This document shows positions 682-25,269 of a stretch of DNA of 32,381 bases, one piece after another. Source of the stretch: an uncultured Trichormus sp. (GTDB lineage Bacteria; Cyanobacteriota; Cyanobacteriia; Cyanobacteriales; Nostocaceae). A program made the translations under genes and the position numbers. Where the stretch lies: NCBI GenBank assembly GCA_936914905.1, contig CAKZGI010000031.1, forward strand, positions 1 to 32,381, read 5' to 3'. The stretch's first letter is position 1. Every line of letters starts with the position of its first letter. Under the pieces are notes generated by a model that did not search any database, was not told where the DNA came from, and saw only the letters and a program-made list of their open reading frames with translations.

Positions 682-715
682 AATGAGATAAGCAATTTTG
701 CTACGATACAGTTAT

Positions 716-2092
716 ATGACCACTTTTATAGATGTGGGCTATGGCTACCAAAGCCCAGAACTGAATCTCAGTCAAGAAGATTACAGCTTGCTGACTGACC
801 TTTACCAGCTAACAATGGCAGCTTGTTACACAGGTGAAGGGATAGAACAAAAACGGGCAAGTTTTGAATTATTTGTGAGACGCTTACCTAATGGTTTTGG
901 CTATTTAATAGCTATGGGTTTGGCGCAAGCTTTGGAATATTTGGCTAAATTCCGCTTTAATTCCGCGCAAATTGCTGCTTTGCAGGATACGGGAATTTTT
1001 ACCCATGTACCTGAGCATTTTTGGTCATTACTGGCTGAAGGGGCTTTTACTGGGGATGTATGGGCTGTACCAGAAGGAACTGCGGTATTTGCCAATGAGC
1101 CATTTTTACGGGTGGAAGCGCCTTTATGGCAAGCACAGTTAGTAGAAACCTATCTTTTAAATACTATTAATTACCAAACTTTAATTGCTACAAAGGCAGC
1201 TAGATTACGTGATATTGCGGGAGAAAAAGCAACACTTCTGGAATTTGGTACGCGCAGGGCTTTTAGTCCCCAAGCTTCTTTATGGGCTGCACGGGCAGCT
1301 TTAGCTAGTGGTTTAGATGCAACGTCTAATGTGTTAGCAGCGATACAACTAGAGCAAAAACCAAGTGGTACTATGGCACACGCTTTAGTTATGGCTTTAT
1401 CAGCTTTAGAAGGAAGTGAAGAACAAGCTTTTACAGCCTTTCATCAATATTTCCCGGGTGCCCCATTGTTAATTGATACCTATGATACTGTTGCTAGCGC
1501 TCAAAAGTTGGCGCTGAAAGTAAAAATGGGGGAAATGAAATTAACGGGGGTGAGGTTGGATTCTGGAGATTTGGTTAGTTTATCAAAAACAGTGCGAGCG
1601 CTCCTACCAGAAGTTTCAATTTTTGCCAGTGGTGATTTAGATGAATGGGAAATTCAGCGACTCAAAACAGAAGGTGCAGAAATTGATGGTTATGGTTTAG
1701 GAACAAAATTAGTTACAGGTTCTCCTGTCAATGGAGTTTATAAATTAGTAGATATTGATGGCATTCCAGTGATGAAAATGTCTAGTGGTAAGTTTACTTA
1801 TCCAGGACGTAAACAAATATTTCGTTCTTTTGGAGGAAGTAAATTACAAGCGGATAAATTAGGTTTATTAGATGAAAATGAGGCTGAAAAAAAACCTTTA
1901 TTACAGTTGGTGATGAAAGAGGGTAAACAATTAGAAAAACCTGAAATTTTAACAAAAATTCGTCAGCGGACAGAGTTTTCTGTTGCTAGTTTATCAGAAG
2001 AAATACGAAGATTAAAAAATCCTATTTCTGTGAACGTAGAAATTTCTCAAATGTTGCGAAATTTGACTGAGGAAACGAAGGCAAAACACTAA
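716..2092 (+). CDS. pncB: Nicotinate phosphoribosyltransferase
   Basis: Converts nicotinate, PRPP and ATP to nicotinate mononucleotide, the entry step of the Preiss-Handler NAD salvage route. Family hallmarks are LLTDLYQLTMAACY near residue 25, LEFGTRRAFSPQASLWAARA, the TMAHALVMAL segment with the likely catalytic histidine, LIDTYDT, and the phosphate-binding GVRLDSGDL. Its 458 codons are normal for the family. The open frame extends 18 bp upstream to a TTG at 698, but the ATG at 716 is the better start; no strong ribosome-binding site is visible for either. It is first in a cluster with nadD, an NrtR-like gene and nadE. A promoter and palindromes lie upstream. It appears intact. Confidence 0.95.
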   Translation: MTTFIDVGYGYQSPELNLSQEDYSLLTDLYQLTMAACYTGEGIEQKRASFELFVRRLPNGFGYLIAMGLAQALEYLAKFRFNSAQIAALQDTGIFTHVPEHFWSLLAEGAFTGDVWAVPEGTAVFANEPFLRVEAPLWQAQLVETYLLNTINYQTLIATKAARLRDIAGEKATLLEFGTRRAFSPQASLWAARAALASGLDATSNVLAAIQLEQKPSGTMAHALVMALSALEGSEEQAFTAFHQYFPGAPLLIDTYDTVASAQKLALKVKMGEMKLTGVRLDSGDLVSLSKTVRALLPEVSIFASGDLDEWEIQRLKTEGAEIDGYGLGTKLVTGSPVNGVYKLVDIDGIPVMKMSSGKFTYPGRKQIFRSFGGSKLQADKLGLLDENEAEKKPLLQLVMKEGKQLEKPEILTKIRQRTEFSVASLSEEIRRLKNPISVNVEISQMLRNLTEETKAKH

Positions 2093-2201: not shown

Positions 2202-2235
2202 ATGAACATTACCTTATTATGAACATTACCTTATT
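2202..2235 (+). repeat. 17-bp perfect tandem duplication across the nadD start
   Basis: ATGAACATTACCTTATT occurs twice back to back (2202-2218 and 2219-2235). The second copy is the genuine nadD start. The first copy opens a six-codon minigene, MNITLL, whose TGA stop (2220-2222) overlaps the nadD ATG as ATGA. This looks like a slippage duplication that created a short upstream ORF coupled to nadD. Confidence 0.85.
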
Positions 2236-2782
2236 TGGAACAAGTGCTGATCCACCAACTGCTGGACATCAAAAAATTATCAAGTGGTTATCTGAAGATT
2301 CTGATTGGGTTGCTGTTTGGGCTGCTGATAATCCCTTTAAGTCTCAGCAAACTCCTTTACCTCATCGGGCGGCTATGTTACAACTTTTAATCAGAGATAT
2401 AGAAAATCCCAGAGATAATATTTCTTTGGAACAAGATTTGAGCAGTTGGCGAACTTTTGAAACAGTAGAAAAGGCTAAATTACGTTGGGGTGATAATGCC
2501 GAATATACTTTAGTAATTGGTTCAGATTTATTGCATCAGCTACCACGATGGTATCATGTTGAAGAATTGTTAAAACAAGTGCGACTTTTAGTAATTCCTC
2601 GACCAGGCTATGTCATAAATGATTCGAGTTTGGAGGAAATTAAGCAGTTAGGAGGAAAAATTGCGATCGCCAGTTTAACTGGTTTAGATGTCTCTTCCAC
2701 GGCTTTTCGTAAACAAAAAGATCCCGAAACTCTTACCCCCCCTGTTATCGCTTATATTTATCGAGAGCATTTGTACGTTTAA
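2219..2782 (+). CDS. nadD: Nicotinate-nucleotide adenylyltransferase
   Basis: Transfers AMP from ATP to nicotinate mononucleotide, giving deamido-NAD, the step after PncB and before NadE. The N-terminus MNITLFGTSADPPTAGH carries the nucleotidyltransferase (H/T)xGH signature as TAGH. The TLVIGSDLLHQLPRW region matches the substrate-binding part of the family. Near the C-terminus, DVSSTAFRK is the cyanobacterial version of the ISST-x-xR motif. At 187 codons it is of normal length. Its start lies inside a 17-bp tandem duplication, and its TAA abuts the ATG of the next gene, so the downstream regulator is probably translationally coupled to it. A HIP1 site lies at 2663-2670. Confidence 0.92.
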   Translation: MNITLFGTSADPPTAGHQKIIKWLSEDSDWVAVWAADNPFKSQQTPLPHRAAMLQLLIRDIENPRDNISLEQDLSSWRTFETVEKAKLRWGDNAEYTLVIGSDLLHQLPRWYHVEELLKQVRLLVIPRPGYVINDSSLEEIKQLGGKIAIASLTGLDVSSTAFRKQKDPETLTPPVIAYIYREHLYV

Positions 2783-3529
2783 ATGCCAGCACGCAACCAC
2801 AAAAAAAATCCCAATCCGATAAATCAACAACCTTTGGCTGATTTCAAAGTCGGTGTAGATAATGTAATTTTTTCTGTAGATACAGCCCAAAATCGGCTGT
2901 TAGTTTTATTAGTAATGCGACAGCAAGAGCCATTTGTAAATTCTTGGAGTCTTCCCGGTACTTTAGTACGTCAAGGAGAATCTTTAGAAGATGCGGCTTA
3001 TCGCATTATGGCAGAAAAAATAAAAGTCAATAATCTCTATTTAGAACAACTCTATACTTTTGGTGGTCCCAATCGTGATCCAAGGGAAAAGACTGATAGT
3101 TATGGAGTGCGTTATTTATCAGTAAGTTACTTTGCTTTAGTCCGGTTTGAAGAAGCAGAATTAGTTGCTGATAAAGTTGCTGGTATTGCATGCTATCCAG
3201 TTAAACAAATACCCCAACTAGCATTTGATCATCATGAAATTATCACCTATGGACACAGAAGATTAAAAAATAAATTAGAGTACAGTCCTGTAGCTTTTGA
3301 AGTCTTACCAGACACCTTTACTCTCAATGATTTATATCAGCTATACACCACGATTTTAGGGGAAAATTTCTCAGATTATTCTAATTTTCGGGCGCGTTTA
3401 CTAAAGCTAGGTTTTTTATCGGATACTGGAATCAAAATATCAAGAGGAGCAGGACGACCTGCTAGTTTGTATAAATTTGATGCAGAAGCCTTTGCACCTT
3501 TTAAAGATAAACCTTTAGTGTTTATTTAA
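2783..3529 (+). CDS. nrtR: NrtR-type Nudix/winged-helix regulator of NAD metabolism
   Basis: A two-domain protein. Residues about 20-150 form a Nudix fold (VDNVIFSVDT, WSLPGTLVRQGES), and about 170-248 form a winged helix (NFRARLLKLGFL, then RGAGRPASLYKF). This architecture is that of NrtR, a repressor that senses ADP-ribose and controls NAD genes in several bacteria including cyanobacteria. The Nudix box is degenerate: GESLEDAAYRIMAEK lacks the RE and EE catalytic glutamates, so hydrolase activity is unlikely and a sensing role is favoured. It starts immediately after the nadD stop (TAAATG) with no separate ribosome-binding site. Placement among pncB, nadD and nadE supports local autoregulation. 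The symbol rests on architecture and context. Confidence 0.82.
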   Translation: MPARNHKKNPNPINQQPLADFKVGVDNVIFSVDTAQNRLLVLLVMRQQEPFVNSWSLPGTLVRQGESLEDAAYRIMAEKIKVNNLYLEQLYTFGGPNRDPREKTDSYGVRYLSVSYFALVRFEEAELVADKVAGIACYPVKQIPQLAFDHHEIITYGHRRLKNKLEYSPVAFEVLPDTFTLNDLYQLYTTILGENFSDYSNFRARLLKLGFLSDTGIKISRGAGRPASLYKFDAEAFAPFKDKPLVFI

Positions 3530-3531
3530 AT

Positions 3532-3561
3532 AGGTGATAGTTAAGAAGGTGATAGTTAAGA
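3532..3561 (+). repeat. 15-bp perfect tandem duplication between nrtR and nadE
   Basis: AGGTGATAGTTAAGA occurs twice in direct succession (3532-3546, 3547-3561), just after the nrtR stop. The rest of the 97-bp gap is AT-rich and repetitive. This is the short tandem repeat style common in heterocystous cyanobacterial intergenic DNA. Confidence 0.85.
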
Positions 3562-9831: not shown

Positions 9832-12249
9832 TTATTCACCACCACCATACTCACCTTTAATTAATTGTTGAAATCTGGAATCTTTGTTAACATCATCAAA
9901 GTCTATATCAGTTGCAGCATCTTCTCTGTAGCTAAGTTTAATTTCAATAGCTTTTTGGAGATTCTCTAAAGCTAGTGCAACTTCTCTTTGCAGTGCAAAA
10001 CAAGCTGCTTTATTATAATAAGCACTAGGATAATCTGGATTAATTTCTAATGCTTTATCAAAATTTCTAATCGCTTCGTCATCTTGCCCCAATCTTACCA
10101 AAGTGTAACCACGTTTATCCCAAATCTTGGGGGAATTTGGTTGAAATTCCAAAGCTTTATCAAAGGACGAAATAGCATCTTCATAATTTTCCAATTCTAG
10201 CAAAGATAACCCACGATTTAACCAAGCCACACCATCATCAGGCTTAATTTGCGTAGCTTTGTCAAAACAGTTGTAAGCTTCTTGATGTTTACCTAAATTA
10301 CCGCAGGCTACACCAATATCACACCAAGCTTGATGATAATCAGGATTAATTTTAATGGCTTGATTGTAAGATATAATCGCATCCTTATAGCGTTTTAACC
10401 TATTCAGAATTAAACCTCGCTTTAGCCAAATTTCTGCATCATCAGGCCTAATTTTAACGACTCGCTCATAAATCGATAAAGCCTCATTATAGCGTTTTTC
10501 TGAAAATCTTATTTCCGCTTCTTTGATATCATCATCAGCAGAAATTTCTGGTTGTTTTTGTTCTAGGATTGTTTGCAGTTCTGGAGTAGGTTTAGGTTTG
10601 ATTTCAACTGACTCTTGTAAAATTGCATTTTTACGTTGGTGAGCACCTAAGAGGATGTTTGAAAGTTGATCAACAAATTCAGATTCTAACTTTTCTAAGT
10701 TGTCTAATTTCTGTGAAATCTTCAATTTTTGTTGTTGAATATAAGATTGAATATCTGAAAACTGATTAGTAAATTCATGACCAGATGCTTCTAAATTATC
10801 AATAATTTCTTGTTGACGCACTTGAGCATCATTGTATAATGCTGTAACTTCATTGATAAATTCAGATTCTAAATTTTGAAACTTATGTAAAATCTTCAAT
10901 TTCTGTTGTTGAACATCAGATTGGATATCTGAAAACTGAGCAGTAAATTCACTACCAGATGCTTCTAAATTATCAATAATTTCTTGTTGACGCACTTTAG
11001 TATCATTCTGTAACTCTGAAATTTGGTTAATCAATTTGGCTTCTAATTGGTGTAGATTTTCCCAAATCATAACTTGCTGTTGTTGAATATCTTTGTGCAC
11101 ATCAATTTGAATCTCTGAAAACTGAGAGGTAAATTCACTGCCAGATTTTTGTAAATTATCAATAATTTCCTGTTGACGCAGTTGAGCAGTATTCTGTAAT
11201 TCTGAGAGTTGGTTAGAAAATTCTAATTGTAATTGCACTAAACCAACACCCAGGTTATCTTTTTGGTTTTGAGCATCAATTTGTAATTCAGCAATTTGTG
11301 ATTTCAATAAATCATTTAATTTTTTAAGATAATCTATAAATACATTTTTTTGATTTTGAGTATCTACTCGAAATTGAGATAATTGTTCAGTAAACTCTGA
11401 CTGGTATTTTGATAGACTTTCAAAAGTCTGTTCTTTTTGTTGTAGAGTTTCCGACTCTAACCCATGAAGTAGAGATATGAACTGAGAACGGGATTGTTCA
11501 ATATCATTAACAGCAGTATCTTTTTGATTTCCAACTTCTAACTTCACTTCGGTAAATTTAGAAACTAAATCAGCTTCTAATTTTTTGACATTTTCAATAG
11601 TTATCTTTTGTTGCTGAGCAGATAGAGTTACTTGTTCTAATTGTGTATTCAGTTTAAATTCTAAATTGCTGATATTCTCCTGAGCAGATTCAACTTCACG
11701 TTCTAAGGCTGTTAAAAATTCTTGTTTTGATTTTGGTAAGTCTGATAAAAGAATAGATAAATTTTCTTCTTCACCTTGAATTGCTTCCTTGAGTCTATTA
11801 ACTTCCTGTGCTAATTCTTGAGTGAGATGTTGTGATGCTTGAATCGAGTTCCCTACATCTTGATTAACAGTCAGTAATTGAGTTTGCAATTTGTCTATTC
11901 CTTCTATTTTTTGCATTGATCGCTCGATAATCTCCCGAATAATGGCTTTTCTTAAAAACCATACTGTAGCGATTAAAACTACTGGAAATAAACTTAAAAT
12001 AGTTAACCAGATATTTAGTAGGGTATTCGTGCGAGTAAAAGCACGCTCAAAATCTGACTGCACTTGCTTTTGAATGCCGTTTTCTGTTCGCAGTCTGGTT
12101 AATTCTTCCCGTTCCTGATTTGATATTACCTGAGCAGTAGCTGATGGTTCCAGTTTTCCACTGAAAAAACTAGTACATATCAACAGGGGTGACAATAAAA
12201 TGGCGCTTTTTAAAGCTAATGTTGAGAACATGGGTTTTTTGCTGTTCAT
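9832..12249 (-). CDS. Membrane-anchored coiled-coil protein with C-terminal TPR domain
   Basis: An 805-residue protein. Residues 1-40 are signal-like (SAILLSPLLICTSFFSG), and about 78-98 form a transmembrane helix (TILSLFPVVLIATVWFL). Residues about 100-555 are a long Gln/Glu/Leu-rich coiled coil with internal repeats of about 58-62 residues; each unit has QQEIIDNL, then SEFTxQFSxIQ, then QQKLKI. The matching DNA repeat starts at 10781, 10955 and 11141. From about 570 to 770 there are five or six TPRs (ALSIYERVVKIRPDDAEIW, AIISYNQAIKINPDYHQAW). The ATG start has AGGAAAGG upstream. It may be a scaffold or envelope-spanning tether; partners are unknown. The codon pattern is intact throughout. 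Confidence 0.85.
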   Translation of the reverse strand: MNSKKPMFSTLALKSAILLSPLLICTSFFSGKLEPSATAQVISNQEREELTRLRTENGIQKQVQSDFERAFTRTNTLLNIWLTILSLFPVVLIATVWFLRKAIIREIIERSMQKIEGIDKLQTQLLTVNQDVGNSIQASQHLTQELAQEVNRLKEAIQGEEENLSILLSDLPKSKQEFLTALEREVESAQENISNLEFKLNTQLEQVTLSAQQQKITIENVKKLEADLVSKFTEVKLEVGNQKDTAVNDIEQSRSQFISLLHGLESETLQQKEQTFESLSKYQSEFTEQLSQFRVDTQNQKNVFIDYLKKLNDLLKSQIAELQIDAQNQKDNLGVGLVQLQLEFSNQLSELQNTAQLRQQEIIDNLQKSGSEFTSQFSEIQIDVHKDIQQQQVMIWENLHQLEAKLINQISELQNDTKVRQQEIIDNLEASGSEFTAQFSDIQSDVQQQKLKILHKFQNLESEFINEVTALYNDAQVRQQEIIDNLEASGHEFTNQFSDIQSYIQQQKLKISQKLDNLEKLESEFVDQLSNILLGAHQRKNAILQESVEIKPKPTPELQTILEQKQPEISADDDIKEAEIRFSEKRYNEALSIYERVVKIRPDDAEIWLKRGLILNRLKRYKDAIISYNQAIKINPDYHQAWCDIGVACGNLGKHQEAYNCFDKATQIKPDDGVAWLNRGLSLLELENYEDAISSFDKALEFQPNSPKIWDKRGYTLVRLGQDDEAIRNFDKALEINPDYPSAYYNKAACFALQREVALALENLQKAIEIKLSYREDAATDIDFDDVNKDSRFQQLIKGEYGGGE
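10781..11200 (-). repeat. Long-period internal repeats in the coiled-coil gene
   Basis: Three diverged copies of a unit, each beginning CCAGAT on the plus strand at 10781, 10955 and 11141, share TAAATTATCAATAATTTC and TGTTGACGCA. The periods are 174 and 186 bp, both multiples of three, so the repeats keep frame (58 and 62 residues). This suggests growth of the coiled coil by in-frame duplication. Confidence 0.7.
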
Positions 12250-15317: not shown

Positions 15318-17074
<1,757 letters not shown>

Positions 17075-22376: not shown

Positions 22377-22802
22377 ATGAAACTTCCTGGAGCTGAAATA
22401 GGGTATGCTAACCAATAAATTCTGGAAGGTATACCTCTAACTTGGGGTGAAGCGACCAAAGATTGTACTCGCATTCCCACTAGTTCTGAATATGTAGCAA
22501 ATGCAATTAAACTAGCAAAAGTTTGGGGAGGAGTAAGAGAAAAATTTGATTCACCAATTAGAATTACTTCTGGTTACCGTCCACCGCAGGTAAATAAGAG
22601 TGTTAGTGGCGTTAGTAACAGCCAACATATTTACTTTCGCGCCCTGGATATGCAGCCCCTGAATGAAGATTTTGGGAAACTTTGGGAGGTGTTAAAAGCT
22701 TCTCAATTTACAGGTTTGGGAGGTGCTGTATTCATGGGGCGCAATAAAGGATTTTTTCATGGAGATACTAGACCTAGTGGCAGACTTATTTTCCCTTATT
22801 AA
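22377..22802 (+). pseudogene. M15-type (D-Ala-D-Ala carboxypeptidase-like) peptidase remnant
   Basis: One frame reads MKLPGAEIGYANQ, TAA (22416-22418), then ILEGIPLTWGEATKDCTRIP, PIRITSGYRPPQVNKSVSG, SNSQHIYFRALDMQPLNED and NKGFFHGDTRPSGRLIFPY to TAA 22800-22802. The SxHxxxRAxD-like segment and the later His-x-Asp correspond to the zinc ligands of peptidase M15 enzymes, which trim peptidoglycan peptides. The protein-like frame extends upstream of the ATG at 22377 to about 22323 and its beginning is lost. After the stop there is no suitable start for the 127-codon remainder. Called a pseudogene on those grounds. Confidence 0.7.
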
Positions 22803-25095: not shown

Positions 25096-25269
25096 TGATG
25101 CTAACCAATTTATAGGTCTGATGCACCTTAGTAATATGCCAGTTACGTAAATTCTGTGGTTAAAAAAAACTTTATATACCAATGATGCTAACCAATTTAT
25201 AGGTCTGACGCACCTTAGTAATATGCCAGTTACGTAAGTTCTGTGGTTAAAAAAAACTTTATATACCAA
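25096..25269. repeat. 87-bp tandem duplication, two copies
   Basis: Copy one (25096-25182) and copy two (25183-25269) both begin TGATGCTAACCAATTTATAG and end TTTATATACCAA, differing at two positions (ATGCACC/ACGCACC and GTAAATTC/GTAAGTTC). On the minus strand this keeps a frame open (2 x 29 codons), but the hydrophobic, Cys/Trp-scattered translation is not convincing as a protein. Two substitutions suggest a fairly recent duplication. Confidence 0.9.

Follow-up and report, generated by a model that had tools for sequence, protein, structure and literature searches.

The nadD gene of an uncultured Trichormus sp. begins twice, and the question that this locus raises is whether the additional start is a device for controlling the gene or the chance product of a replication error. 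Two perfect head-to-tail copies of the 17-bp unit TATTATGAACATTACCT, at positions 2198–2214 and 2215–2231 of the plus strand, lie across the nadD start in the window, by which we mean the whole 32,381-nt stretch of DNA that was analyzed. Matching runs 4 nt further (TATT) beyond the second copy, to 2235, and the whole array (2198–2235) measures 38 bp. Tandem Repeats Finder describes this array with a period of 17, 2.2 copies, and 100% matches, and a separate repeat finder returned the same two copies, bearing out the perfect 17-bp tandem duplication that an earlier note on this DNA had claimed at the nadD start; the start of the repeat, placed by that note at 2202, is moved to 2198. First-order Markov copies of the window (n = 20) yielded one perfect tandem repeat with a period of at least 10 and none with a period of at least 14, which rules out a chance origin of the 17-bp repeat.

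The second ATG (2219) opens a 187-aa frame beginning MNITLFG, which is nadD, encoding nicotinate-nucleotide adenylyltransferase (2219–2782, plus strand). This identity is backed by the NCBIfam model NF000842.0 (E = 1.4e-78, 263 bits against a cut-off of 167), and the N terminus aligns with those of relatives. The upstream gene, for nicotinate phosphoribosyltransferase (698–2092, plus strand; NF006696.0, E = 5.8e-194), ends 126 bp before nadD. Directly 3′ of nadD sits a Nudix gene with an NrtR/AraR-type winged helix (2783–3529, plus strand; matches to NrtR_WHD and AraR_C), after which comes a NAD synthase with an amidase-type domain (NF010588.0; PF00795 and PF02540). The TAA stop of nadD abuts the ATG of the regulator-like Nudix/winged-helix gene (2780–2783), and this junction is likewise a candidate site of translational coupling. 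The same genome also contains a second, distant NadD homologue (G000:C46:18325-18708; 30% identity, E = 5.6e-8), and comparably weak second NadD matches occur in 26 of the other 59 genomes in the homologue search.

Whether the duplication is unique, a question for which the earlier note had looked to alignment with related strains, was answered in favor of uniqueness among the genomes compared. The congener sample consists of one genome, G001, the only other genome from the genus search, whose NadD is 94% identical to that of the window. Its leader, CTTGAACTCCTATATTATGAACATTGCCTTATTTGG, contains a single copy of the unit, and alignment with the window, locally collinear here, opens a 17-nt gap that coincides exactly with the repeat; within the same 198-nt stretch, the two sequences also differ by a gap of 3 nt some 70 nt further upstream and by a few substitutions. 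L001, L005, and L084, three other relatives whose leader is similar, are single-copy too. A pattern search of 217 family genomes that tolerated up to 3 mismatches returned the doubled start from one genome, the window's own; this search is weak for relatives with a differing N terminus (e.g., MRIALFG).

A sequence-independent survey for any perfect tandem repeat with a period of 8–40 within 60 nt of the nadD start gave a similar picture. Across 80 loci, taken from 180 that encode a relative and possibly without records of the own or a very near genome, such a repeat is present near the start in 6 and reaches the start in none, with the start placed 3–6 nt off in loci whose match begins at residue 2 or 3. 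The closest homologue among these 80 loci is that of Sphaerospermopsis aphanizomenoides (L001, 87% identity); the remaining loci we take, from titles and taxonomy, to belong to heterocyst-forming cyanobacteria. Among 30 further loci (L082–L111), the start is spanned by a repeat in L082, which is the own genome, and is just reached by 14-nt repeats (double heptamers) in L088 and L101. The survey thus covered the 80 loci and L082–L111, with loci L117–L144 left out, and the two sets, which partly overlap (e.g., L008/L086), do not amount to 110 independent genomes. In L101, the heptamer array contains an ATG about 14 nt 5′ of the nadD start; the frame that it opens reads ATG AAG AAT TAA and ends 2 nt before the nadD ATG, a comparable, independent mini-frame made by repeats. 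A published account of the window's duplication was not found among the titles and abstract openings listed, which is no proof that none is in print.

The reading that we favor, with a probability of about 85%, is that replication slippage recently produced the tandem duplication, which is probably near-neutral and was not selected as a regulator. Short tandem duplications that arise by replication slippage between micro-homologies are a general mutational class. In the single-copy sequence of the congener, TATT stands immediately 5′ of the ATG and recurs in codons 5–6, at a spacing of 17 bp, so that a short direct repeat bounds the unit on either side; in the window, the adjacent copies are identical, and the unit is single in the close relatives available, namely one congener and a few further genomes. 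The nadD array resembles other members of the class in this bounding 4-nt direct repeat, in the perfection of its copies, and in having several comparable duplications elsewhere in the 32-kb window, and it differs in that the duplicated unit spans a start codon. Re-pairing of the nascent strand from one TATT to the other would have caused the 17 bp between them to be copied again. Both copies in the window carry ATTACC in place of the congener's ATTGCC, indicating that this base change is probably older than the duplication.

The duplication has siblings. The long alignments between window and congener contain 17 indels of at least 6 nt. Six of them match the sequence next to them at 90% or more, with the extra copy in the window in five cases and in the congener in one; the remaining 11 of the 17 are not copies of neighboring sequence by the same measure, which counts against the slippage view. 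Direct inspection revealed that the window's tandem repeats at 3532, 5446, 8408, 25096, and 25351 are single-copy in the congener, and the first of these, a perfect 15-bp tandem duplication within the nadD cluster (3532–3561, plus strand), provides a comparison case. As several window-side tandem duplications are missing from the congener, small tandem duplications appear to be routine mutation here. The direction of change rests on G001 and the few single-copy relatives named above, and loss of a copy elsewhere is conceivable. Taken from the sequence comparison, the nadD duplication is probably young, apparently lineage-specific, and ordinary in origin.

What the duplication has created can be read directly. 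The first ATG opens a putative cryptic minigene, ATG AAC ATT ACC TTA TTA TGA (MNITLL*; 2202–2222, plus strand), the TGA of which (2220–2222) overlaps the nadD ATG (2219) to form ATGA at 2219–2222, such that an upstream stop overlaps a downstream start as in AUGA pairs. An upstream ATG followed by five codons and a TGA overlapping the true ATG is what the earlier note had described, and reading the sequence confirms it; its further statement that the two copies encode the same N terminus holds for five residues and fails at the sixth, where the codon is TTA (Leu) in the first copy and TTT (Phe) in the second. The overlap follows automatically from the duplication, as an ATGA start that is duplicated with a shift of 2 modulo 3, and with no stop in between, makes the first frame end in that TGA. 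Since the nadD start reads ATGA in 76 of the 80 relatives (starts placed by script), selection is not needed to explain the overlap; given the duplication, it would have required a frame chance of about one in three and an open stretch of five codons. An upstream ATG frame that ends on the nadD ATG is present in 4 of the 80 relatives (L001, 25 codons; L028, 28; L038, 10; L051, 27) within a search reach of 59 codons, so such overlaps arise easily; these longer frames have no visible likeness to MNITLL. Neither the small ORF nor its position is conserved in the congener and the 80 relatives. A conserved leader peptide was considered and is unsupported, given the single-copy congener and a doubled start confined to the own genome among the family genomes searched.

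With the doubled start in a different frame, the intact protein would still be read from the second ATG at 2219, and the first ATG, which retains the old upstream context, opens the six-codon minigene that ends at ATGA. A ribosome starting at 2202 would terminate precisely where nadD begins and may resume translation at that point. The impact on nadD would thereby be softened and the duplication left probably close to neutral, with no selection for it as a regulator. An evolved control device is not supported, as the duplication is absent from the congener and the other genomes examined, sibling duplications lie in the same 32 kb, and the overlap is automatic. What is supported is a cryptic minigene with a probably small effect on nadD.

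Two further readings concern the effect of the duplication and are compatible with its origin by slippage, so that the confidences attached to them need not sum to one with that of the favored reading. In the first, the upstream copy would be a working leader minigene, in which translation starts at 2202, runs through six codons to TGA, and sets nadD output by reinitiation at the overlapping ATG, as the earlier note had proposed; we regard this as possible but doubtful. The architecture is in place, with a mini-ORF and an ATGA overlap, and the first ATG is preceded by the sequence that precedes the single ATG of the congener, an inherited context that makes initiation at 2202 plausible; 2202 could well be initiated and nadD output altered. 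Coupling was strict in 13 of 14 overlapping pairs tested in Haloferax and E. coli, and the same study states that cyanobacterial (re)initiation typically does not depend on a Shine–Dalgarno (SD) sequence (PMC6728339). Minigenes can act on the gene that follows in either direction, by raising or by lowering its expression (PMC8708949). Against a working leader stand the confinement of the doubled start to this genome among those examined, the other tandem duplications of the window, which have no such role in view, and the missing SD before the second ATG. A scan for pieces of AAGGAGG/AGGAGGT of at least 4 nt, from about 20 to 4 nt upstream of the ATG, found none before either 2202 or 2219, in agreement with the earlier note, which had seen no obvious ribosome-binding site before either copy. 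The lack of such a signal before the small ORF is weak evidence, SD-less starts being common in the group: among the 80 relatives, 50 nadD starts are without an SD piece, 21 have a 5-nt piece, and 9 have a 4-nt piece. For the second ATG, a comparison can be drawn with cyanobacterial overlapping pairs, 40% of which are preceded by an SD compared with about 20% or less of leading genes (PMC6728339). Together, these SD statements are neutral to mildly against efficient reinitiation at the minigene/nadD junction.

The strongest form of this reading, in which one slippage event put nadD under a new translated minigene and most nadD synthesis would now proceed by termination-reinitiation at ATGA, seems to us similarly doubtful from the sequence. 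If true, it would present a newly arisen leader ORF on which selection has not yet acted, and the congener would serve as a ready-made single-copy control; if the first ATG is used, the locus would be a clean natural case of one slip creating an upstream minigene with a coupled overlap. As it stands, the finding matters little and adds one more apparently lineage-specific tandem duplication.

The second reading, a mild disruption in which the first ATG captures ribosomes, most of them fail to reinitiate, and nadD output falls, we consider improbable. The old upstream context now lies directly before the first ATG and not the second, no SD was found that could assist reinitiation, and folding predictions give start codons less open than that of the congener (0.18 and 0.19 vs. 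0.33, from fragments of unequal length); the divergent NadD homologue on C46 might tolerate a lower output, if it is active as NadD. However, SD-less initiation may use both ATGs, and the mean predicted unpaired fraction over 36 nt around the start is not lower than in the congener (0.66 and 0.59 vs. 0.56). The predicted RNA folding is thus mixed and was not taken as evidence.

An assembly or sequencing artefact is very improbable even in a draft genome of 485 contigs with 3.5% estimated contamination, as the array is only 38 bp long and usual sequencing reads are longer, several other tandem duplications occur at unrelated sites of the window, and the locus is matched only once in the assembly. 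Just as little credit can be given to a transcriptional effect, in which the duplication separates a −10-like TATATT/TATTAT from the nadD ATG and a transcript could start between the copies: a 9-of-12 promoter-like match is present (CTGTCA-17-TATATT, 2173–2201), but such matches are no commoner than in shuffles (2 on both strands vs. 1.5, sd 1.4), and the TATATT of the congener lies directly before its sole ATG and is hardly that gene's own promoter. A promoter effect of the duplication was rejected on this match count.

Among known systems, the MIRU elements of mycobacteria are the best model for a near-neutral outcome at nadD. When a MIRU inserts at a start codon, an ORF remains that is coupled to the gene at −4 nt, and a review considers the consequence for the gene likely to be small (PMC12548453). 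The two cases are alike in that sequence added at a start codon results in such a coupled ORF, and they differ in that MIRUs are repeated, apparently mobile units, whereas the nadD case is a single local 17-bp duplication. Very short ORFs just before or overlapping a gene, which the nadD minigene resembles, include mg2 of axe-txe and small ORFs overlapping pssA, yoaE/yoeE, baxA, and argF, and axe-txe illustrates how a minigene can adjust, in cis, the expression of the gene downstream (PMC8708949); those examples were tested by mutants or fusions, whereas the nadD minigene is known from sequence alone. With the AUGA termination-reinitiation pairs demonstrated elsewhere (PMC6728339), the locus shares the four-nucleotide overlap, whereas its upstream frame is putative, only six codons long, and apparently new, and no SD was found within it. 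For cyanobacteria and others, heptamer repeats have been reported close to start codons (PMC4679880), and the nadD locus is similar in its repeat turnover beside a start codon. The leader itself contains a degenerate AACTGTC heptamer array at 2157–2178 (Tandem Repeats Finder). The 17-bp array is not of this STRR-like type, as its period of 17 is neither 7 nt nor a multiple thereof and its unit contains the start codon itself.

Several further repeats and differences were observed in the window. The tandem duplication at 25096–25269 has an 87-bp unit with 97% matches, is single in the congener, and lies in a stretch without an ORF of at least 120 aa. Near 22480, the congener has about 1.2 kb of extra sequence, the flanking alignments meeting in the window and lying 1.2 kb apart in G001. 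About three 174-bp repeats with 78% matches (10716–11223) fall inside an 805-aa minus-strand ORF (9832–12249), a repeat-built protein. At 16975–17065, ten perfect copies of TGGTATGGG lie at the 3′ end of the ORF at 15338–17074 and resemble a GroEL-type GGM tail; this array of a 9-bp unit is repeated in both the window and the congener, and that of the congener is one unit longer, with two variant units.
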